DNA from: an uncultured Opitutia bacterium
Lineage (GTDB): Bacteria; Verrucomicrobiota; Verrucomicrobiia; Opitutales; UBA953
DNA length: 64,000 nt
Direction: 5' to 3'
NCBI GenBank assembly: GCA_945957395.1
Contig: CAMFKE010000003.1
Location: 248,001-312,000 of the forward strand
The translations under genes were made by a program, and so were the position numbers. The notes under the pieces were generated by a model. It was not told the origin of the DNA. It ran no database searches and worked only from the letters and a program-made list of their open reading frames with translations. This document shows, piece by piece, positions 33,402 through 42,919 of the stretch (the first letter of the stretch is position 1; the number at the start of each line of letters is the position of its first letter).

Positions 33402-34322
33402 TTATCGGGAGGAGAGGGCGGCGGCGATGCGGCGGGCGTTTTCTCGCATCATGCCCTCGTAGGAGGCCGCGGGTGTGCCGGGTTTGTCGAGAGCGTCGGT
33501 GTAGAGTTTCACCGGAGGCGGCAGGCCGGCCTCTCTCGCCAGCGTTTCCAGCAGGTCGGCGGACATGGTGTTGTCGGCGAAGACGGCGGGCACCTTGGAG
33601 GCCCGGATGTCGGCGGCGATGCGGGCCATGGTCTTGGCGGACGGATCGGCGGCCTCGCTGGAGGAGCTTTGCAGGAGGGTGCCGGCCACGACAAAGCGGA
33701 ACCGTTTGGCGAAGTGCGACAGGTTGTTGTGCTGGGAGAACAGCTTGCGGCGCTCGTCCGGGATGCCCGCGAGTTCCTTTTCGATGTCGTCGGCCAGGGT
33801 CTTCATGCGTTGCGCATAGGCCTCGCCCGCGGCGCGATGCGCCTCGGCGTTGGCGGGGTCGATGGCGGCGAGCCGTTCCGCGAGGGCCCGGCCCATTTTG
33901 GCGACATTGGCGGGGTCGGACCAGATGTGGGCGTCCGATCCGTGGGCGCCGCAGGGGCAGCCCGCGCCATGGTTGTGCCTGTGCCGGGTGGTCGTGGTTT
34001 CGGGGATGAGGCCTTTGCCGAGGTAGAGCACGGGGCGTTTCAGCGCGCCCGCCTTTTCCAGGTCGGCCACCCAGCCTTCGAGCTGGGGGTGGATGGCCAC
34101 AACCAAGTCCGCCTCCGCCAGGGCGCGCACCTGCGCCGGGGTGGTCTGCATGGCGTGGAAGTCGGCGTTGGGCGGTGTGAGCGAGCGCACCCTGACGCGC
34201 TCGCCGCCCACGCCGGAGGCGATGTCGCCGGGGATGGTGAAGGTGGCGGTCACGCCGAGGCTTCCCGCGAAGGCGGCGGCGCAGGAGAGCAGGGAGAAAA
34301 GAATGGGGGCGATGCGGGCCAT
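33402..34322 (-). CDS. znuA: Zinc ABC transporter substrate-binding protein (ZnuA-type)
   Basis: 306 residues from the ATG at 34322, which gives a clean signal peptide (MARIAPILFSLLSCAAAFAG); an ATG at 34340 is also possible. It has the cluster-9 pattern of metal-binding proteins: NADFHAMQTTPAQVRAL, a flexible loop RHRHNHGAGCPCGAHGSDAH, HIWSDPANVAKMG and FADNTMSADLLETLAREAG. The His-rich loop points to zinc. It is the first gene of znuACB. A possible Fur/Zur-type operator lies about 50 bases upstream. Confidence 0.92.
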   Translation of the reverse strand: MARIAPILFSLLSCAAAFAGSLGVTATFTIPGDIASGVGGERVRVRSLTPPNADFHAMQTTPAQVRALAEADLVVAIHPQLEGWVADLEKAGALKRPVLYLGKGLIPETTTTRHRHNHGAGCPCGAHGSDAHIWSDPANVAKMGRALAERLAAIDPANAEAHRAAGEAYAQRMKTLADDIEKELAGIPDERRKLFSQHNNLSHFAKRFRFVVAGTLLQSSSSEAADPSAKTMARIAADIRASKVPAVFADNTMSADLLETLAREAGLPPPVKLYTDALDKPGTPAASYEGMMRENARRIAAALSSR

Positions 34323-34370
34323 GGGAGGGGGGGCGTCCATGTAAAAAACGAGGGGCGCCGGAGGGGTTGT

Positions 34371-34498: not shown

Positions 34499-35314
34499 AT
34501 GAAAATTTACCCGATTCTTGGCGCGGTCGCCGTTTCGTGCCTCTCGCTCACTCCCCAACTTGGTCACGCCCAAAGCGCGCCCGCCGGCGAGCAGGCCCGC
34601 ATGACCAAGCCGCTCGTCATTGTCAGCCGCCAGCTCGACGGAAAGTCGGTCAAGGGCGGCAACGGCAACTGGCACCGTCTGGAAGTCGAAGTGAAGGCGC
34701 TTCCTGACGGCATCAAGGCCGCCCTCCTCGCTCAGCAGGTGCCGGCCAAGTACGCCGGAGACTCCGTGAAGTGGGTGAACAATGTGAAGGTCAGCGTGGT
34801 GGCCGGCTTCAAGCCCAGCGGCTCCGACCTGAGCAAGCCGAAGGTTTATCAGGAGGTGCTCAAACTCAAGGAGCGCGCCACGGACGCCGCCGCCTTCGCC
34901 GCGGCCAAGGATGTCAACAACCCCGACAACTGGCGTTACTACAAGGCCTCCACCGTGGTCGCCACCCTCGAGGCCAACAAGCCCCGCAGCGTATTCTTCT
35001 ACATCCCCGGCGACATCGTCGAGCGCGACGGCATCACCAACCCGCGCCCCGATGCGGCCTATGTGACGCTGGAGGTCGACGGCCAGGAGGTTCCCGTGCT
35101 GGACGAGAAGGGCGCGCCCTTCACCGGCAGCAACGCCGTGCTCATCGCGGGCTCCAAGCCCGACGCCGCCAAGCTGGCCAAGCTTAAGGAAGTGGCCGAG
35201 CGCGCGGTGCGCGACACCGAGGGCGTGATGCGTCCTCAGAACCTCATCACCAACTTCATCGACGCCGACTGGAAGGCCTCCCCCGACTTCGTCCGCGAGG
35301 AGGCCGCGAAGTAA
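34499..35314 (+). CDS. Exported protein in the position of Amuc_1102 (pilus-associated locus)
   Basis: 271 residues from the ATG at 34499, which opens a signal peptide (MKIYPILGAVAVSCLSLTPQLGHAQ). The mature part is beta-rich with repeated segments such as KPLVIVSRQLDGKSV, VEVKALPDGIKAALLAQQ and SVFFYIPGDIVERDG. It is the first gene of a five-gene block whose order and gene types match Amuc_1102-1098 of Akkermansia, where Amuc_1102 is described as having an immunoglobulin-like fold. The match here is judged from position, size and export signal, not from an alignment. Role: unknown, probably envelope part of the pilus/secretin system. Confidence 0.7.
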   Translation: MKIYPILGAVAVSCLSLTPQLGHAQSAPAGEQARMTKPLVIVSRQLDGKSVKGGNGNWHRLEVEVKALPDGIKAALLAQQVPAKYAGDSVKWVNNVKVSVVAGFKPSGSDLSKPKVYQEVLKLKERATDAAAFAAAKDVNNPDNWRYYKASTVVATLEANKPRSVFFYIPGDIVERDGITNPRPDAAYVTLEVDGQEVPVLDEKGAPFTGSNAVLIAGSKPDAAKLAKLKEVAERAVRDTEGVMRPQNLITNFIDADWKASPDFVREEAAK

Positions 35315-35335: not shown

Positions 35336-37012
35336 ATGAGCAGTCCCAAATCCATCATCGTCAACTGCGGCGCCACCCAGGTGGGCGTCTCCGTCTTCAC
35401 CAACAACGCCGGCCGGCTCACCCTGGAGCGCCTCGTCATCGAGGACCTCGACTACGACTACGCCGGCGAGGACGCCTGGCTCGGTGCGCTTTCCGTCGCC
35501 CTGGGCCGCATCGTGCGCGGGCTGAAGATTTCCGGCCCCGCGTCGGTCGTCGTGCCCGGCTACCAGCTGCTCACCAAGAGCATCCGCGTGCCGCAGGTCG
35601 AGCGGGCCAAGCAGGCCCAGATCATCGGTTTCGAGGCCCAGAACCAGATCCCGTTCCCGCTGAACGAGGTGGTCTGGGACAGCCAGATCATCGCCACCGA
35701 CGGCGTCGAGGCCGAGGTCATGCTCTTCGCCCTCAAGCAGGACGCCGCCGCGCGCATCGCCGGTGTCGTCTCCGCCTCCGGGCTCACCCCGTCGGTCCTC
35801 GAGGCCTCCACGCTCCTTGATTACCAGGCCTGGCGCGCCGCGAACCCGGCCGACACGGACGAGGTGCTCATCGTCAACATCGGCGCGCGCACCACGAACA
35901 TGACCTTCGTGAACGCCGCCGGCTTCAGTGTGCACAATGTGAACGTGGGCGGCAACCTGCTCACCCAGTCCATCTCGGACACGCTCGCCCTTCCGTTCGC
36001 CAAGGCCGAGGCCATCAAGGTGGCTCACTTCTCCGGCGCCCGCGCTCTGGCCGACAGCGACCCGCACGCGGCTGCGCTCAAGCAGACCGCGCTGGCCTTC
36101 ATGCGCCGCATCAGCCAGGAGGTCACCAAGCGCATCGTCATCTACAAGCGCCAGAATCAGAACAGCCAGCCCAAGCGCATCATCCTTACCGGCCGCGGCT
36201 CGCTGCTGCCCGGCCTGTCCGAGCTGCTTTGCGAGACCCAGCGCATCAGCGTCGACTACTTCGACCCCTTCGCCGCCTTCAACGCCTCCTCCGCCGTCGA
36301 TGCCGCCTACCTGGAGGGCTGCCGCGTCAGTCTTTCGGAAATCGTGGGCGAGGCGTCCCGCGCCACACTGCCCGGCGCCGTCGGCGTGAACCTGCTGCCG
36401 GCCGCGCTGGAGAGCCAGATGGCGTTCAACCGCCAGAAGCCCCTTCTGCTCGCCGCCGGCGCCTTGCTGGCGTTCGCCCCCTGGCCGCTTTGGCACCACT
36501 TCAACGCCGCCGCCGCCTCCGCCAAATCCGAGGTGCGCGCCGCCGACGCGCGTTATGTCGAACTGACCGGCCACCGCAAGGCCATCGAGGACGCCAAGTC
36601 CGAGGCCGAGCAGGTCGCCTCCCGAGTAAGCTCCCTCAACGACGCCGCCCGCGCCCGCGACAGCTGGCGCGAGTTCCTCGCCGATCTCCAATCGCGCGTG
36701 GCAGGCGTGCCGGATGTTTGGATTGAAGATCTTCGCTTCTCCCGCGTGCCCGCCGCCGTCGCCGAGGGCGCGCCCCCCGCCGACTCCTGCCGCGTCACCG
36801 TGCAGTTCTGCGCCCTTATCAAGGAGGTGTCGCCTGACGGAGCCTTCAACGGCGCCGCCGTCCAGGCGAAGCGTCGTCAGCTGCTCAGCGCCCTGGAAGG
36901 TTCCCCGTTTGTGGAGAAGATTCCCGGTGACGCCGAAAAGAGCGACCTGAAGAAGGCGAACCTCCCGCGCATCACCCTCACCCTGGTCATCAAGGACCAA
37001 AAGCCCCTCTGA
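35336..37012 (+). CDS. PilM-like actin-fold protein fused to a PilN-like membrane domain (Amuc_1101-like)
   Basis: 558 residues. Residues 1-340 look like PilM: SIIVNCGATQVGVSVF, VPGYQLLTKSIRVPQ, LIVNIGARTTNMTFV (the actin-type phosphate loop), NVNVGGNLLTQSISDTL and RIILTGRGSLLPGL. A membrane helix (PLLLAAGALLAFAPWPLWHHF is cut here at about residue 388) is followed by a coiled coil and a PilN-like alpha/beta part. In type IV pilus machines PilM is a cytoplasmic ring protein and PilN is its separate membrane partner; here both seem to be one chain. It overlaps no neighbour but is 2 bases from the next start. Confidence 0.85.
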   Translation: MSSPKSIIVNCGATQVGVSVFTNNAGRLTLERLVIEDLDYDYAGEDAWLGALSVALGRIVRGLKISGPASVVVPGYQLLTKSIRVPQVERAKQAQIIGFEAQNQIPFPLNEVVWDSQIIATDGVEAEVMLFALKQDAAARIAGVVSASGLTPSVLEASTLLDYQAWRAANPADTDEVLIVNIGARTTNMTFVNAAGFSVHNVNVGGNLLTQSISDTLALPFAKAEAIKVAHFSGARALADSDPHAAALKQTALAFMRRISQEVTKRIVIYKRQNQNSQPKRIILTGRGSLLPGLSELLCETQRISVDYFDPFAAFNASSAVDAAYLEGCRVSLSEIVGEASRATLPGAVGVNLLPAALESQMAFNRQKPLLLAAGALLAFAPWPLWHHFNAAAASAKSEVRAADARYVELTGHRKAIEDAKSEAEQVASRVSSLNDAARARDSWREFLADLQSRVAGVPDVWIEDLRFSRVPAAVAEGAPPADSCRVTVQFCALIKEVSPDGAFNGAAVQAKRRQLLSALEGSPFVEKIPGDAEKSDLKKANLPRITLTLVIKDQKPL

Positions 37013-37014
37013 GC

Positions 37015-38028
37015 ATGGAAGCCAAGAAATCCCCCGCCCTGCTGGCGACCCTGGCGGTCTTCGGCCTCGTCGCCCTCGCCGGCGCAGGCTTCACCGTTTT
37101 CGCTTACCTCGACTACTCCGACGCCTCCGTCAAGCTGGCCGCCGCCGACAAGAAGGTCGCCTCGCTGCTCAAGTCCGAGGTCGCGCTGACCCGTGACAAT
37201 GTCGACGCGGCGCAGTCCAACCTGCGCGCGCTGAAGGCGGCCGAGGCCGCCTTGCGCCTTGACCTCTCCGGTGACGGTGCCGGAAGTTTCGACGACAAGT
37301 ACACCGGCGCTCCCGGCGACCTTGGCGCGGTTATCAAGGACTCCGTGGAAGGCTGGCGCACCGTTTGCCGCAAGTCCGGCGTGCGCATCGCCGTGCCCAA
37401 GCCCGACGACTTCGCCTTCGGTTACTCGCGCTACTTCCAGACCGGCGGCACGCCGCCCTCCAAGTTCACCGCGCAGATTCATCGCCAGACCCGCGTGACC
37501 GATTTCCTCGTGAAGTCGCTGCTGCTCGCCAAGGCCTCCGACGACCTGCGCCTGGTCTCCGTCGCCCGCGAGCCCGTCGAGGTTTCCGGAGGCGTCCGTG
37601 GCGGCAACTTCGCCCCCGACGAGGTGGACCCGTCCTCTCGCCGCGATTCGGTGCTGCGCCGCGAAGGCCTCCTGCGCAGCGAGTTCTTCAGCGTCAAATT
37701 CGTCGCCCGCACCGATGTGCTGCGCCGTTTCGTCAACATCGTGACCGCCTCCGGTCGCTCCCTCGCGGTGCGCGGCGTCGAGGTCTCCCAGGCGACGCCT
37801 GAGCAGTTGGCCAACCCCGGGGCCCCGGGCGCGCCCGGCTCCGCCGTCGCGCTGCCCGCCGATCTCTTCGGCGCCCCCGCTCCCGCCCCCGGGGCTGCTG
37901 CCGCCGAGGTCAAGCCCGATGCGCCGGTCGTGAACGACACGCCCTCGCTGTTCACGGTCACGCTTGAGTATATCGAGCCGGTGGCTCCCGCCCCCGCCGT
38001 CGAGTCCGCCGAAAACGCCAACAAGTAA
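37015..38028 (+). CDS. Amuc_1100-like membrane protein (PilO-like position)
   Basis: 337 residues. One N-terminal membrane helix (LLATLAVFGLVALAGAGF, about residues 9-28) is followed by a coiled-coil stretch to about residue 85 and an alpha/beta periplasmic part, then an Ala/Pro-rich linker near residue 290. Size, topology and position between the PilM-type and the Amuc_1099-type genes match Amuc_1100, the Akkermansia protein known for TLR2 signalling and tied to pilus assembly. In pilus terms it occupies the PilO slot. Sequence-level identity to Amuc_1100 was not measured. It starts 2 bases after the previous stop, so it is surely co-translated. Confidence 0.75.
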   Translation: MEAKKSPALLATLAVFGLVALAGAGFTVFAYLDYSDASVKLAAADKKVASLLKSEVALTRDNVDAAQSNLRALKAAEAALRLDLSGDGAGSFDDKYTGAPGDLGAVIKDSVEGWRTVCRKSGVRIAVPKPDDFAFGYSRYFQTGGTPPSKFTAQIHRQTRVTDFLVKSLLLAKASDDLRLVSVAREPVEVSGGVRGGNFAPDEVDPSSRRDSVLRREGLLRSEFFSVKFVARTDVLRRFVNIVTASGRSLAVRGVEVSQATPEQLANPGAPGAPGSAVALPADLFGAPAPAPGAAAAEVKPDAPVVNDTPSLFTVTLEYIEPVAPAPAVESAENANK

Positions 38029-38043
38029 GCCCACCATAGCCCC

Positions 38044-38871
38044 ATGAGCCAGAACACCGCTCGACTCGCGCTTGGCGTGGCGTTCCTCGCCTGCGCCGGA
38101 ACAGTCGCCTTCAACCTCCTGCGCGCCGATGCCGCGCGCGTCACCGCCGCCACCGCCGGCACCTCCCCTTCGGGTTCGGCCTACCCCGCCATCGTCGTGC
38201 CCAAGGTGCCCGGACCCGCCCCCGAGTGGGTGCGCCCCGTGGCCGCCGAAGGCGACGCCTGGCGTTACGACCTGTTCACCCCGGTTGAGGTCCGTTGGGA
38301 TTCCAAGGCCTCCGCCTACATGCCCAAGGGCGAAGTCGCCCCGGTCGAGGCCCCCTTCGGCCTTCGCCTCCTCGCGCTGAAGCACCCCGTGTATCGCTAC
38401 ACCTCCGGCGGCTACCTCAGCATGCCCAATCCGGCCGACTCCATCGTCATGCTGCGCGACACCGTCGCCGGCACCGTGCTGCGCGGCAAAATCGGCCAGA
38501 CGCTGGGCGCCGAGGGCTCCAAGGTCACCCTGCTCGCCTGGGACGACAAGGCCAAGTCCGTCAAGCTCAAGGACCTCGCGCTCAACCGCGAACTCATCGT
38601 CACCGCCAAGCCCCTGGCCTTCACCGACAAGGTCATCGCCACCTTCTCCTCCGGCGACTCCGACGCCGTCGTTTGGACCGCCTCCGCAGTGGGTGAAAAA
38701 TTTGAGAACGAGGCCGGCTCTTATGTCATCAAAGGCATTGACTTCGAGGCCCAATCGGTGACGGTCGAAAAGACTTCGACCCCCGACCCCGTGAAAAACA
38801 AGCGTAAAACCACGGAGGAAACGCTCAGCCCGCTTGCCCTCGCGGCCCCCGTTTCCGGCCCCGCCCAATGA
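38044..38871 (+). CDS. Amuc_1099-like anchored protein (PilP-like position)
   Basis: 275 residues with an N-terminal hydrophobic helix (about residues 8-25) and a mostly beta extracytoplasmic region. DAWRYDLFTPVEVRW and LRGKIGQTLGAEGSKVTLLAWDD are distinctive. It ends in a disordered, lysine/threonine-rich tail. It lies between the Amuc_1100-like gene and the secretin, the place held in other type IV pilus operons by PilP, which links the inner-membrane complex to the secretin. No family was recognised from sequence alone. Confidence 0.7.
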   Translation: MSQNTARLALGVAFLACAGTVAFNLLRADAARVTAATAGTSPSGSAYPAIVVPKVPGPAPEWVRPVAAEGDAWRYDLFTPVEVRWDSKASAYMPKGEVAPVEAPFGLRLLALKHPVYRYTSGGYLSMPNPADSIVMLRDTVAGTVLRGKIGQTLGAEGSKVTLLAWDDKAKSVKLKDLALNRELIVTAKPLAFTDKVIATFSSGDSDAVVWTASAVGEKFENEAGSYVIKGIDFEAQSVTVEKTSTPDPVKNKRKTTEETLSPLALAAPVSGPAQ

Positions 38872-38924
38872 GTTTTTCGCCCTTTTCCTTTAACACCCCA
38901 CATACCTCCCCATCGGTCACCCGC

Positions 38925-41828
38925 ATGAACAAGCAGCAGCGTCTTAAACAGTGGATTGCCGCGCTGGCCCTCGCCGGCTTCCTCGCCCCCGTCTCCGCCT
39001 CCGCCCAGGATGACGCACAATCCCGCGCCAAGGCCGTCTCCCTGACCGCCGAGGCCATCACCGCCCGCGAAGGCGGCGACCTCCTCACGGAGAAGGCCAA
39101 GCTTGAGGAAATCCTCAAGCTCGACGCCGAAAACGCCGACGCCAAGACCCGTCTGGACGAGGTGAACAAGGCCCTGCTCGCCAAGTCCGAAGCGCCCGCC
39201 GGCCCCCTTTCCCCCCTCGACCGCGCCGCCCGGGAAAACCTTAACCTCTTCCGCGAGGTCGAGTCCGCCAAGCTGGACGCCCAGGACGCCGCCGCCCGCG
39301 GCGAATACGAGGCCGCCCTTTCCCTCCTCGACGAGGCCGGCGCCGCCCTGCCCGCCAACACCGCCGGCCAGGCCCTGAAGGATTCCATCACCCAGCTGCG
39401 CCAGCAGATTCTCGCCGACCGCGACTCCGGTGCCGCCGGCGTGAAGGGTGTCACCGGCGCCGCCGTCGCCGACAGCCTGCGCGTCAACAAGGAGCGCGTC
39501 AGCGAAGCCCGTCGTCTCATTTCCGAAGCCTCCTCGCTCACCTCCGACGGCCGCTTCGACGACGCCGGCGCCGCGCTTTCCAAGGCCGAGGCCACGCTGC
39601 CCAACAACAGCACCGCCGACACCGCCCGCGTGGAGCTCAAGAAGGCCAAGTCCAAGCTCTACACCGCCCGCTACTCCGCCGCCGTCGACAAGCGCGACAT
39701 GAAGTCCGCCGAGAAGGCCGTGGATGAGTTCGAACAGCTCAACGGCAAGGACGACAAGCGTTCCGTTTCCCTGCGCGCCGACCTCGTTTCCAAGCTGGGC
39801 GACCCCCACTACAAGTCGATCAACGAGGTGAGCCCCGACTTCGCCGCCCGCGAAAAGAAGGCCAACGACCTGCTCGCCAAGGGCCGCGCCCAGTACCTCT
39901 ACGGCGACTACCTCGGCGCTCTCGAGACCTACAAGGAAGTCCTCCAGTACCAGCCGTACAACACCGAGGCCAAGTCCTTCTCCATCAAGATCCGCGAGAC
40001 CCTCCACGAGAAGTCCGGCAGCTACAACGGCACCGTCACCAAGACCAAGCTCCTGGAGAGCGTCGATGTGGGCTGGTCCATGCCGGAAGCCTTCAACAAG
40101 GATGTCCGCTCCGGCGGCGCCGAGGTCGCCGAGGATCCCGTGGTGGCGCGCATGCGCAAGATCACCATCCCCACGATCTCCCTGCCGGACATGAAGCTCT
40201 CCGTGGTCGTCGCGACCCTGGCCGAGTACTCCATGGCCTACGACAAGGATCAGAAGGGCATCAACTTCAACCTGATCGACCCGGAGAAGAAGGACCCCAC
40301 CGTGTCCCTCACCCTGCGCGACATGCCCCTCTCCGGCGTGCTCGACCAGGTCCTGCGCTCCGTCAATTACTCCTACACCGTCAACAACGGTGTCGTCGAA
40401 ATCCGCCCCGATACCGGCAACGCCGAAATCGAGACCGAGTTCTTCCCGCTCTCCCAGGGTGCCGTCACCCGCATGACCGGCGCCGGCGCCAAGCCCGCTG
40501 ACACCGCCAACCCCTTCGGCGGCGGCGGCGACGCCGGCACGGGGGGCCGTCCCGAAGTGGAAGGCCTCAAGAAGTACTTCCGCGGCATCGGCATCGAGTT
40601 CAACGAGACCACCGGCACCGGTTTGAACTTCGACGGTCAGCAGCTGATCGTCACCCACAACCGCCGTGTCCTCGAGCGCGTTCGCAACACCCTGCGCCGC
40701 TACTCCGACACCAAGCAGATCTCCATCGAGTCCAAGTTCATCGAAGTCAATCAAGGCAACCTGAACGAAATCGCCGCCAACTGGCTGCTGACCAATCGCG
40801 ATGGCGGAAAGGACCAGATCAACGGCGCCACGGGCAATCGTTCCCTGGCCAGCGCCTTCACCAAGACTTCGGGTGGCAACCCGGGTAACATTACCCGCGT
40901 CACCAACCCCGTCTTCGATGTTAACGGCAACCAGATTGGCGGTGGCGAACAGCTTCCGGATGTGAACATCCCGAACAATTCGCCCGTCATCCCCGGCACG
41001 CCCAACTACGGCACGACGACCACCCCGTTCACTGGCAACTTCTCCAGCACCATCGGCATCGGCGGTTACAATGCGCAGCTGTTCATCACAGCGCTTGAGC
41101 AGACGACGGGTTCCGACCTTATGGCAGCTCCGAGCGTGACCGTGAAGGATAGCCAGCAGGCCACCATCAAGATTGTTCAGCTCCTGCGTTACCCGACCTC
41201 CTACTCGGCCATCCAGTCGCAGGTCGCCAACAACGGTAACAATAATAACAACAACAACGGCGGCGGCGGCGGCGGCTCCGTGGCCATCACGGCCGGTACC
41301 CCGCAGGACTTCGAAGTCCAGGAAGTCGGTATCTCGCTGGCCGTCACCCCGACCGTGCAGGCCGACGGTGAGTCCATCGAACTCGACCTCGAGCCCAAGA
41401 TCACCGAGTTCGAAGGCTTCGTGGAATACGGCGGCACCTCCGTGGCCGTCATCAGCAACACCACCGTCACCGTGCCTTCCGGCTTCTACCAGCCCATCTT
41501 CTCGGTGCGCGAAGTGAAGACCAAGGTCACCGTGTACGACGGCGCCACCGTGGTGCTCGGTGGTTTGATCCGCGAAGAGGTCAAGACCGTGCACGACAAG
41601 GTGCCCGTGCTCGGCGACATCCCGGTGCTCGGCAAGCTGTTCCGCTCGGACGGCAAGACCGCGAACAAGAAGAACCTGATGATCTTCGTGACCGCCAACC
41701 AGATCTCGCCCACCGGTTCCCAGCTCAAGGGCACCGTCGGCAATGTCCGCGCCGGCACGACCTTCCAGAACCCCACCCTGTCCTCGCCCTCCGGTTCGCA
41801 GTACCGCGCTCCGATCGAGGCCAAGTAA
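38925..41828 (+). CDS. Pilus/type II-like secretin with TPR N-terminus (Amuc_1098/PilQ-like)
   Basis: 967 residues from the ATG at 38925, chosen for its signal peptide (MNKQQRLKQWIAALALAGFLAP); an ATG at 38868 overlapping the previous stop would add 19 residues. An alanine-rich TPR-like region (to about residue 340) precedes secretin N-domains (ITIPTISLPDMKLSVVV; RRVLERVRNTLRRYSDTKQ) and the C-terminal secretin domain, with EVGISLAVTPTVQADG and the signature VPVLGDIPVLGKLFRSD. A run of Asn and Gly codons (41228-41278) lies in a loop. It forms the outer-membrane ring of the pilus or secretion system and ends the operon. Confidence 0.92.
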   Translation: MNKQQRLKQWIAALALAGFLAPVSASAQDDAQSRAKAVSLTAEAITAREGGDLLTEKAKLEEILKLDAENADAKTRLDEVNKALLAKSEAPAGPLSPLDRAARENLNLFREVESAKLDAQDAAARGEYEAALSLLDEAGAALPANTAGQALKDSITQLRQQILADRDSGAAGVKGVTGAAVADSLRVNKERVSEARRLISEASSLTSDGRFDDAGAALSKAEATLPNNSTADTARVELKKAKSKLYTARYSAAVDKRDMKSAEKAVDEFEQLNGKDDKRSVSLRADLVSKLGDPHYKSINEVSPDFAAREKKANDLLAKGRAQYLYGDYLGALETYKEVLQYQPYNTEAKSFSIKIRETLHEKSGSYNGTVTKTKLLESVDVGWSMPEAFNKDVRSGGAEVAEDPVVARMRKITIPTISLPDMKLSVVVATLAEYSMAYDKDQKGINFNLIDPEKKDPTVSLTLRDMPLSGVLDQVLRSVNYSYTVNNGVVEIRPDTGNAEIETEFFPLSQGAVTRMTGAGAKPADTANPFGGGGDAGTGGRPEVEGLKKYFRGIGIEFNETTGTGLNFDGQQLIVTHNRRVLERVRNTLRRYSDTKQISIESKFIEVNQGNLNEIAANWLLTNRDGGKDQINGATGNRSLASAFTKTSGGNPGNITRVTNPVFDVNGNQIGGGEQLPDVNIPNNSPVIPGTPNYGTTTTPFTGNFSSTIGIGGYNAQLFITALEQTTGSDLMAAPSVTVKDSQQATIKIVQLLRYPTSYSAIQSQVANNGNNNNNNNGGGGGGSVAITAGTPQDFEVQEVGISLAVTPTVQADGESIELDLEPKITEFEGFVEYGGTSVAVISNTTVTVPSGFYQPIFSVREVKTKVTVYDGATVVLGGLIREEVKTVHDKVPVLGDIPVLGKLFRSDGKTANKKNLMIFVTANQISPTGSQLKGTVGNVRAGTTFQNPTLSSPSGSQYRAPIEAK
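41228..41278 (+). repeat. AAC/AAT then GGC triplet run inside the secretin gene
   Basis: The sequence runs AACAACGGTAACAATAATAAC and on into AAC and then GGC triplets, encoding about nine Asn and six Gly. Triplet slippage would keep the frame, so loop length could vary between strains. Confidence 0.7.
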
Positions 41829-41891: not shown

Positions 41892-42039
41892 GCGGAAAGG
41901 CAAAAGGCCGAATGCGGAAGGCAAAAGTGGCCTTGCTGCGCTCGGAGCGTACCGGCCGATTTTGAGAAAGGACTTCCGGCGTGCTGGCCAAGCCCGGCCC
42001 CACTTCTGCATTGTGCCTTTTGCATTCTGCATTGGCCTT
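41892..42039. repeat. Inverted word-repeat element 2
   Basis: The left arm 41892-41930 (words GCGGAAAGGC, AATGCGGAAGGC, AAAAGTGG) is partly complementary to the right arm 42000-42039 (CCACTTCTGCATT, GTGCCTTTTGCATT, CTGCATTGG). The loop is about 70 bases. The right arm uses the same words as element 1 at 9163-9195 and ends 7 bases before the exonuclease start codon. Confidence 0.6.
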
Positions 42040-42046
42040 CCTCCTC

Positions 42047-42919
42047 ATGAAGTGGCTCCTCCTCGACGGGTTCAATCTCACCTTCCGCGCCTTTTACGCG
42101 CTGCCCGAGCTCACCCGGCCCGACGGCTTCCCTACCGGCGCCCTGCACGGTTGGAGCAGGCTTCAGCGCAGTCTGGTCGAGCGTGAAAAGCCCGACCGCG
42201 TCGTGGCCTTTTTCGACCTCGAAGGGTCCACGCGCCACCTGGAGCTTCATCCCGAGTACAAGGCGAACCGGGCCGAGACGCCCGAGCCGCTCAAGCGCCA
42301 GATTCCCGAGGTGAAACGCCTCGCCGGCCTTCTCGGGGCTCGCGTGATTGAGCGCTCCGGTATCGAGGCCGACGACCTCATCGCTTCCTTCGCCGCCCGC
42401 CGCGCCGCCTCCGGCGACGAGGTTCTCATCGTGTCCGCCGACAAGGACTTCGGGCAGTGCGTGGGCGGGCGAGTCGCGCAGCTGGCGCCGACGAACAACC
42501 CGAAGGACCCTTGGGTGCGTTTGGATTCCGCCGGCATCGAGGCGAAGTTCGGCGTACCGCCCGCGCATGTGGCCGATTACCTCGCGCTCATGGGGGACAG
42601 CGTGGACAACATCCCCGGCATCAAGGGCGTCGGGCCCAAGACCGCCGCGAAATGGATTTCCGAATACGGCGACATCGAGGGCGTGCTCGCCGCCGCCCCG
42701 CGCATCGAGCCGGTGCGCTTCCGCGAGGTGCTCGCGAGCTCGGCCGACCTGCTGCGCAAGAACCGCACGCTCGTCACCTTCCGCACCGACTACCCGACCG
42801 ACGAGGCCGAACGCCCCGCCGACTTCGACTTCGCCGGTCTCAGCGCCTTCTACGAGGCCATGGGCATGCAGGCCGCCCGCAAGGACCTCGAAAAGCGCCG
42901 CCAGACGGAGCTGTTCTGA
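42047..42919 (+). CDS. Stand-alone 5'-3' exonuclease (DNA polymerase I N-terminal type)
   Basis: 290 residues from the ATG at 42047. WLLLDGFNLTFRAFYALPELTRPDG starts the PIN-like fold (cut here in two at FRAF), with acidic metal ligands in VVAFFDLEGSTRH, SGIEADDLIASFA and VSADKDFGQ, and the helix-hairpin-helix GDSVDNIPGIKGVGPKTAAKW. This is the flap-endonuclease/5'-exonuclease domain that in most bacteria is fused to PolA. Alone it may remove RNA primers or flaps. The upstream repeat arm gives an apparent extension of the frame that is rejected. Confidence 0.93.
   Translation: MKWLLLDGFNLTFRAFYALPELTRPDGFPTGALHGWSRLQRSLVEREKPDRVVAFFDLEGSTRHLELHPEYKANRAETPEPLKRQIPEVKRLAGLLGARVIERSGIEADDLIASFAARRAASGDEVLIVSADKDFGQCVGGRVAQLAPTNNPKDPWVRLDSAGIEAKFGVPPAHVADYLALMGDSVDNIPGIKGVGPKTAAKWISEYGDIEGVLAAAPRIEPVRFREVLASSADLLRKNRTLVTFRTDYPTDEAERPADFDFAGLSAFYEAMGMQAARKDLEKRRQTELF

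Follow-up and report, generated by a model that had tools for sequence, protein, structure and literature searches.

A distant Amuc_1100 homologue in a pilus-type operon of an uncultured Opitutia bacterium

Within the window (the whole stretch of DNA that was analysed, 64,000 nucleotides from an uncultured Opitutia bacterium), the gene at 37015-38028 on the forward strand encodes a 337-aa protein that is confirmed here as a true but very distant homologue of Amuc_1100 of Akkermansia muciniphila. It lies in an operon that reads as pilMN-pilO-(pilP)-pilQ, and its product is very probably the PilO-type inner-membrane component of the alignment complex of a type IV pilus, in a form that occurs throughout the phylum. 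The phylum-wide family of pilus assembly proteins to which it belongs is already known; within it, the protein is a distant and ordinary member, neither rare nor surprising in itself.

Results

The ORF opens with ATG, and its coding status is backed by homologues in 46 of the 57 relatives searched (its own genome included), the best non-self homologue matching at E 6e-41 with 37% identity. In the AF2 model (mean pLDDT 81.7, pTM 0.68), a first helix (residues 7-53) starts with the single predicted membrane segment (residues ~7-31; 37033-37107, +), which is the only hydrophobic segment of the protein (KD19 maximum 2.2 at residue 8); the remainder of this helix and a further one (residues 60-85) make up a stretch of long helices (residues ~32-85; 37108-37269, +) that presumably forms a coiled coil. 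An alpha/beta core follows (residues 100-259; 37312-37791, +), with G136, Y137 (F elsewhere), Y140, R185, and F229 conserved across 82 aligned sequences. Between the last two strands lies a disordered Pro/Ala-rich insert (residues 260-310; 37792-37944, +; pLDDT <50 over most of 270-300), and the final beta strand comprises residues 311-322 (37945-37980, +). Because the sole Cys is residue 118, and a lipobox cysteine is absent, the protein is not a lipoprotein.

The earlier note had called this gene a candidate Amuc_1100 homologue, to be checked by profile-profile alignment and by structure superposition, and both bear the proposal out. When a profile of 27 homologues was aligned by hhalign with a ten-sequence profile of Amuc_1100 and its relatives, the match ran end to end over 315 columns (probability 99.6, E 1.9e-24), i.e., homology to the wider Amuc_1100 superfamily extends over the whole length. 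The NCBIfam equivalog model Amuc_1100_fam (NF038287) matched the protein itself at 43.9 bits (E 2e-11, profile positions 8-295 of 326), short of the curated cut-off of 180 bits, and independently matched 23 of the 27 aligned homologues. Identity to solved Amuc_1100 is 14.8% over 291 aligned positions. The relationship was settled only by the ten-relative profile, as searches with single sequences were too weak: phmmer with the 337-aa sequence against the PDB gave chance-level matches only and missed Amuc_1100, and BLASTP against a divergent Akkermansia homologue found almost nothing (E 0.04). The 27-homologue profile likewise missed Amuc_1100 in the PDB (best rows stomatin, E 0.08), and hhalign against the single divergent Akkermansia homologue reached a probability of 83.7. 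No Pfam family was at cut-off for the protein, PilO models included, and the latter matched neither it nor any of the 27 homologues at E up to 1. T2SSM/GspM models did not match the protein either; one of the 27 homologues hit GspM_XpsM (E 0.005).

With the predicted model as query, the top ten Foldseek hits, which are all of those at E<=0.001, were Amuc_1100 chains (E 2.2e-7 to 1.2e-5), followed by PilO (3jc8, 2rjz, 5uvr). On realignment, the model was nearest to Amuc_1100 (6lad, 6kny, 6laf; VIA Z 17.6 for 6lad_D, with 2.4 A over 161 residues and 12% identity) and then to PilO (Z 8.9 for 2rjz_B, with 2.4 A over 92 residues; Z 7.1 for 5uvr), while PulM (8a9x) scored Z 5.3 and unrelated rows up to 6.3. 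By these scores, the predicted model has the fold of Amuc_1100 and, more broadly, a PilO-like fold with one N-terminal membrane helix. The topology described above, its coiled coil being presumed, agrees with the likeness to Amuc_1100 that had been claimed, and so does the length class: a protein that is identical to solved Amuc_1100 over 287 aligned residues (L065, genome G166) has 317 aa. Genome G166 shares the class of the window genome and belongs to another order, which is the sense in which the lineage is, as proposed, a different one.

The gene is the third of five same-strand ORFs (34499-35314, 35336-37012, 37015-38028, 38044-38871, and 38868-41828), with 21, 2, and 15 bases between successive members and then an overlap of 4 bases, in the order found in Akkermansia (1102-position, 1101, 1100, 1099-position, and 1098). 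Three of the five are named by NCBIfam models (the Amuc_1101, Amuc_1100, and Amuc_1098 families), each below its curated cut-off. The place of the gene is that of Amuc_1100: an Amuc_1101-family ORF (NF045709, E 1.2e-87) ends 2 bases upstream, the ORF in the Amuc_1099 position begins 15 bases downstream, and a PilQ-type secretin of the Amuc_1098 family (38868-41828, +; NF042912, E 6.7e-119; PF00263 Secretin, E 8e-36) comes next, two genes downstream. The two remaining ORFs are assigned mostly by order. For that in the Amuc_1102 position (34499-35314, +), homologues were found in 9 of the 34 loci searched, and it gave no direct match with Amuc_1102 of Akkermansia, leaving direct homology between the two unsupported. 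The ORF in the Amuc_1099 position (38044-38871, +) is possibly a PilP/GspC-like component; the model NF042425 (Amuc_1099_fam) did not match the protein itself and weakly matched 3 of its 24 homologues (best E 0.002), and the idea of Amuc_1099 as PilP found no supporting profile or PDB match.

Outside the operon, a 5'-3' exonuclease gene (41981-42919) follows the secretin, and a similar-looking ORF follows the secretin in a subdivision-3 locus (L033, 9232-10113). Upstream on the opposite strand lies a gene for a ZnuA-type zinc-binding protein (33402-34340, -; PF01297, E 7e-68), with ORFs resembling ABC transporter parts beyond it on the same strand.

The Amuc_1101-type protein (35336-37012, +) is 558 aa long, against 348 positions in the pilM model, and combines a PilM domain (residues 12-330; PF11104 PilM_2, E 5e-24) with what appears to be a PilN/GspL-like part (residues 364-558) after it. 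Similar lengths (545-628 aa) were found in 32 of 34 loci, the ORF of the other two being 481 aa long in one and truncated to 251 aa by the contig end in the other. The model of the last 195 residues of the window's protein (pLDDT 90.4) has a ferredoxin-like domain as well as a membrane helix and one very long helix; nearest to it were PilO (Z 9.8), PulL (9.4 and 8.6), XcpY (8.6), and EpsL (7.9). In GspL, an actin-like part is linked to a periplasmic domain anchored in the membrane, and we read the Amuc_1101-type protein as PilM fused to PilN in a GspL-like architecture. As ferredoxin-like domains are common (a ribosomal S6 permutant reaches Z 8.8 against the same model), the modelled fold alone is no proof of PilN, and the assignment leans on architecture and order. 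No prior mention of this fusion reading was found in the open-licence literature, and a search for PilMN with the names of the phylum gave no paper containing PilMN among the open-licence matches listed. The reading would give Amuc_1101 a second, testable function.

On the choice between a pilus and type II secretion, the genome as a whole gave seven T2SSE, ten T2SSF-domain, and four secretin matches. Neighbouring genes on one contig (C9) encode three T2SSE ATPases, of which two contain MshEN domains and the third, of 368 aa, lacks one, together with a T2SSF protein; they are likely PilB-PilT-PilB-PilC, names that we infer. Two further contigs (C10 and C4) each carry T2SSE, T2SSF, secretin, and N-methyl ORFs along with L- and M-like ORFs of their own (PilN, E 2e-4 and 2e-5; T2SSM, E 2e-5 and 0.003), all but one of these matches being below curated cut-offs; the T2SSM-matching ORFs encode 193 and 196 aa. 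With their own secretin and T2SSM/PilN-matching ORFs, these two clusters do not need the 337-aa protein, which makes the operon in the window a third set that fits the pilus motors best. The T2SS-like cluster on C4 is split into two halves ~11 kb apart.

In a phylum-wide sample of 383 genomes, 306 (~80%) had Amuc_1100-family matches (E<=0.001), 43 of them over the curated cut-off. In a planctomycete-centred control, 5 of 147 genomes matched, all at E 7.9e-5 or weaker, and among 14 well-known genomes only that of B. subtilis did; a few percent of the 306 may thus be background, and the family is still widespread in the phylum. No earlier phylum-wide count was found in the open-licence literature. 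We examined 34 loci, i.e., 32 from genomes matching the family, picked for spread over families, plus an Akkermansia contig (L032) and a subdivision-3 contig (L033). In all 34, the slot lies between an Amuc_1101-like ORF and a secretin; 32 of these loci had been chosen for an Amuc_1100-family match. Profile searches found the 1100 ORF in 30 of the 34 (all E<1e-5) and the 1099 ORF in 13; in the four loci where the 1100 ORF was missed (L115, L133, L134, and L137), the slot holds an ORF of 309-318 aa. L032 has the five-gene order of the window, and L033 has its 1101, 1100, 1099, and secretin slots in the window's order. In two loci (L131:10150-12501 and L143:10393-12501), a second secretin-matching ORF directly follows the first. 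Divergent Akkermansia homologues (L137:5068-5994 and L032:3145-4065) occupy the right slot and are only 22-25% identical to A. muciniphila Amuc_1100. One published comparison reports A. glycaniphila as being without Amuc_1100 (PMC6828834), an absence that may reflect a problem of sensitivity.

Conservation was assessed on the 82 aligned sequences, made up of 11 core Akkermansia rows and 71 outside core Akkermansia. Among the 71, N62 is present in 68, G136 in 63, Y140 in 63, R185 in 66, and F229 in 61; core Akkermansia retains G136, Y140, R185, and F229. All 82 have an insert of 34-93 residues ahead of the last strand, mostly rich in Pro, Ala, Gly, and Ser (median half of residues). Four positions, N62, R237, V305, and E318 in the window, are S, L, Y, and N in the 11 core Akkermansia rows, and in 13 rows from three other genera of Akkermansia's family N62 and D/E318 are each found in 13 and R237 and V305 each in 12. 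A naive test took the 20 columns that 65% of the other rows conserve; deviations numbered 8-11 in the Akkermansia rows (core, L032, and L137) and 5 in the window. When 38 clusters at 40% identity were weighted equally and each left out in turn, core Akkermansia deviated at 0.43 of columns, ranking sixth of 38, and the window at 0.44. The notion that Akkermansia Amuc_1100 has lost unusually many machine-conserved residues is thus unsupported as stated, since this test did not show Akkermansia to be an outlier; with Akkermansia level with the window, positions 62, 237, 305, and 318 are leads rather than evidence of selection for a host role. For an Amuc_1100 mutation, Y289A, no paper was found in the open-licence literature, and no argument here draws on it.

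Discussion

Much of the setting of this protein is already published: the Amuc_1100 family has been described, linked to type IV pili, and reported as syntenic within Verrucomicrobiales, and NCBIfam models exist. Amuc_1098-1102 is a known pilus-like cluster (PMC5332112), amuc_1099-1102 synteny has been described across Akkermansiaceae and Verrucomicrobiales (PMC13174399), PilQ (Amuc_1098) has been placed in the outer membrane and noted in other Verrucomicrobia too (PMC4960237), and a review states that Amuc_1100 is structurally similar to proteins of type IV pili and of type II secretion (PMC13119276). In the open-licence literature, a mention of Amuc_1100 together with an Opitut- name was found in one general review only.

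The reading as a PilO-type subunit draws on the homology to Amuc_1100, on a model whose fold is PilO-like, on the conservation of the operon, and on the separate PilB/PilT/PilC-type genes in the genome; the Amuc_1100_fam score far under its cut-off and the lack of a Pfam match count against it. The N-terminal helix would anchor the protein in the inner membrane, and in the periplasm its coiled coil and alpha/beta core would form a pair with the Amuc_1101-type protein's PilN-like half. Together with the protein in the Amuc_1099 position, it could then connect the secretin (PilQ) with the motors and with the PilM half in the cytoplasm, and Amuc_1100 itself would be the Akkermansia version of the same inner-membrane part. 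On balance, we lean towards a broader view as well, namely that Verrucomicrobiota build type IV pili with an alignment complex of their own, in which PilM and PilN form one fused, GspL-like protein and PilO is larger through both an additional alpha/beta half and a long Pro/Ala-rich insert that is disordered. Amuc_1100 would then be the inner-membrane PilO of that complex and its host activity incidental, for which pilus-only relatives such as the 337-aa protein could provide the proof.

One could argue that the match reflects a generic fold, a long helix plus a ferredoxin-like domain, without common descent from Amuc_1100. Identity is indeed only ~15%, with BLASTP to the divergent Akkermansia homologue near nothing and Amuc_1100 missed by the single-sequence PDB search; however, a profile match running from end to end at E 1.9e-24, a Z of 17.6 that far exceeds those of unrelated rows, and an operon slot identical to that of Amuc_1100 make such a coincidence hardly credible. 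That the protein is instead the GspM-like component of type II secretion machinery, in an operon that secretes proteins and builds no pilus, is a more serious proposition, as PilO and GspM have a fold in common (PulM scores Z 5.3), one homologue matches GspM_XpsM, and the PilM-PilN fusion resembles GspL. We nevertheless consider it unlikely because PilO outranks PulM in the structure comparison, two other clusters in the genome link T2SSE and T2SSF to a secretin and contain N-methyl ORFs as well as T2SSM-matching ORFs of their own (193 and 196 aa), and an ATPase of the PilT pattern is present.

Amuc_1100 is, in turn, often described as a surface or outer-membrane immunomodulator, and it has been reported to activate TLR2 and, by immunofluorescence, to sit outside cells (PMC5332112), a location that conflicts with an inner-membrane protein. 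For the 337-aa protein, a main role in host contact is nonetheless very improbable when considering that the gene recurs in most of the genomes sampled, that in every locus examined it sits between pilus assembly genes, and that the product has a PilO-like fold and no lipobox cysteine. A pilus operon found across most of the phylum argues for an ordinary inner-membrane pilus part, the PilO-type subunit, rather than a special host-acting protein.

No result of the present analysis supports a host effect of the 337-aa protein; it is still usable as a comparator for Amuc_1100. The earlier suggestion was that such a distant relative helps to ask which parts serve the pilus and which the host effect; sequence comparison alone does not separate the two sets of residues. 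Homologues of ~15% identity and the same fold are natural controls for whether TLR2 signalling stems from Akkermansia-specific features, from the fold, or from contaminants. The native job of Amuc_1100, a candidate therapeutic protein, is rarely discussed, and a phylum-wide homologue in a pilus operon argues that this job is pilus assembly.

Among the closest known systems is the MUL2 locus (amuc_1099-1102; PMC13174399), whose gene set and order are as in the window; its text names Verrucomicrobiales, Chthoniobacterales, and Methylacidiphilales, the window's taxonomic order being different from Akkermansia's, and in its passages on the locus Amuc_1101 is called PilM and the PilN part goes unmentioned. 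Amuc_1100 (6kny, 6lad, 6laf; NF038287) and the 337-aa protein resemble each other in fold and length, occupy the same operon slot, and each have one membrane segment at the N-terminus and a Pro/Ala-rich insert ahead of the final strand, but they share only ~15% identity and the latter falls below the family cut-off. The second-best structural match is PilO of Pseudomonas aeruginosa (2rjz, 5uvr), along with the type IVa pilus machine model 3jc8 (Z 7-9). PilO has the same place between PilM/PilN functions and the secretin; it differs in that fewer residues align (92 for 2rjz_B), no PilO model matches in sequence, and the window operon is without a separate PilN gene. Finally, GspL (PulL, XcpY, EpsL) is like the Amuc_1101-type protein in combining an actin-like part with a membrane-anchored periplasmic domain, but the likeness to GspL and GspM has its limit in that the genome of the window has separate T2SS-type clusters with L- and M-like ORFs of their own.
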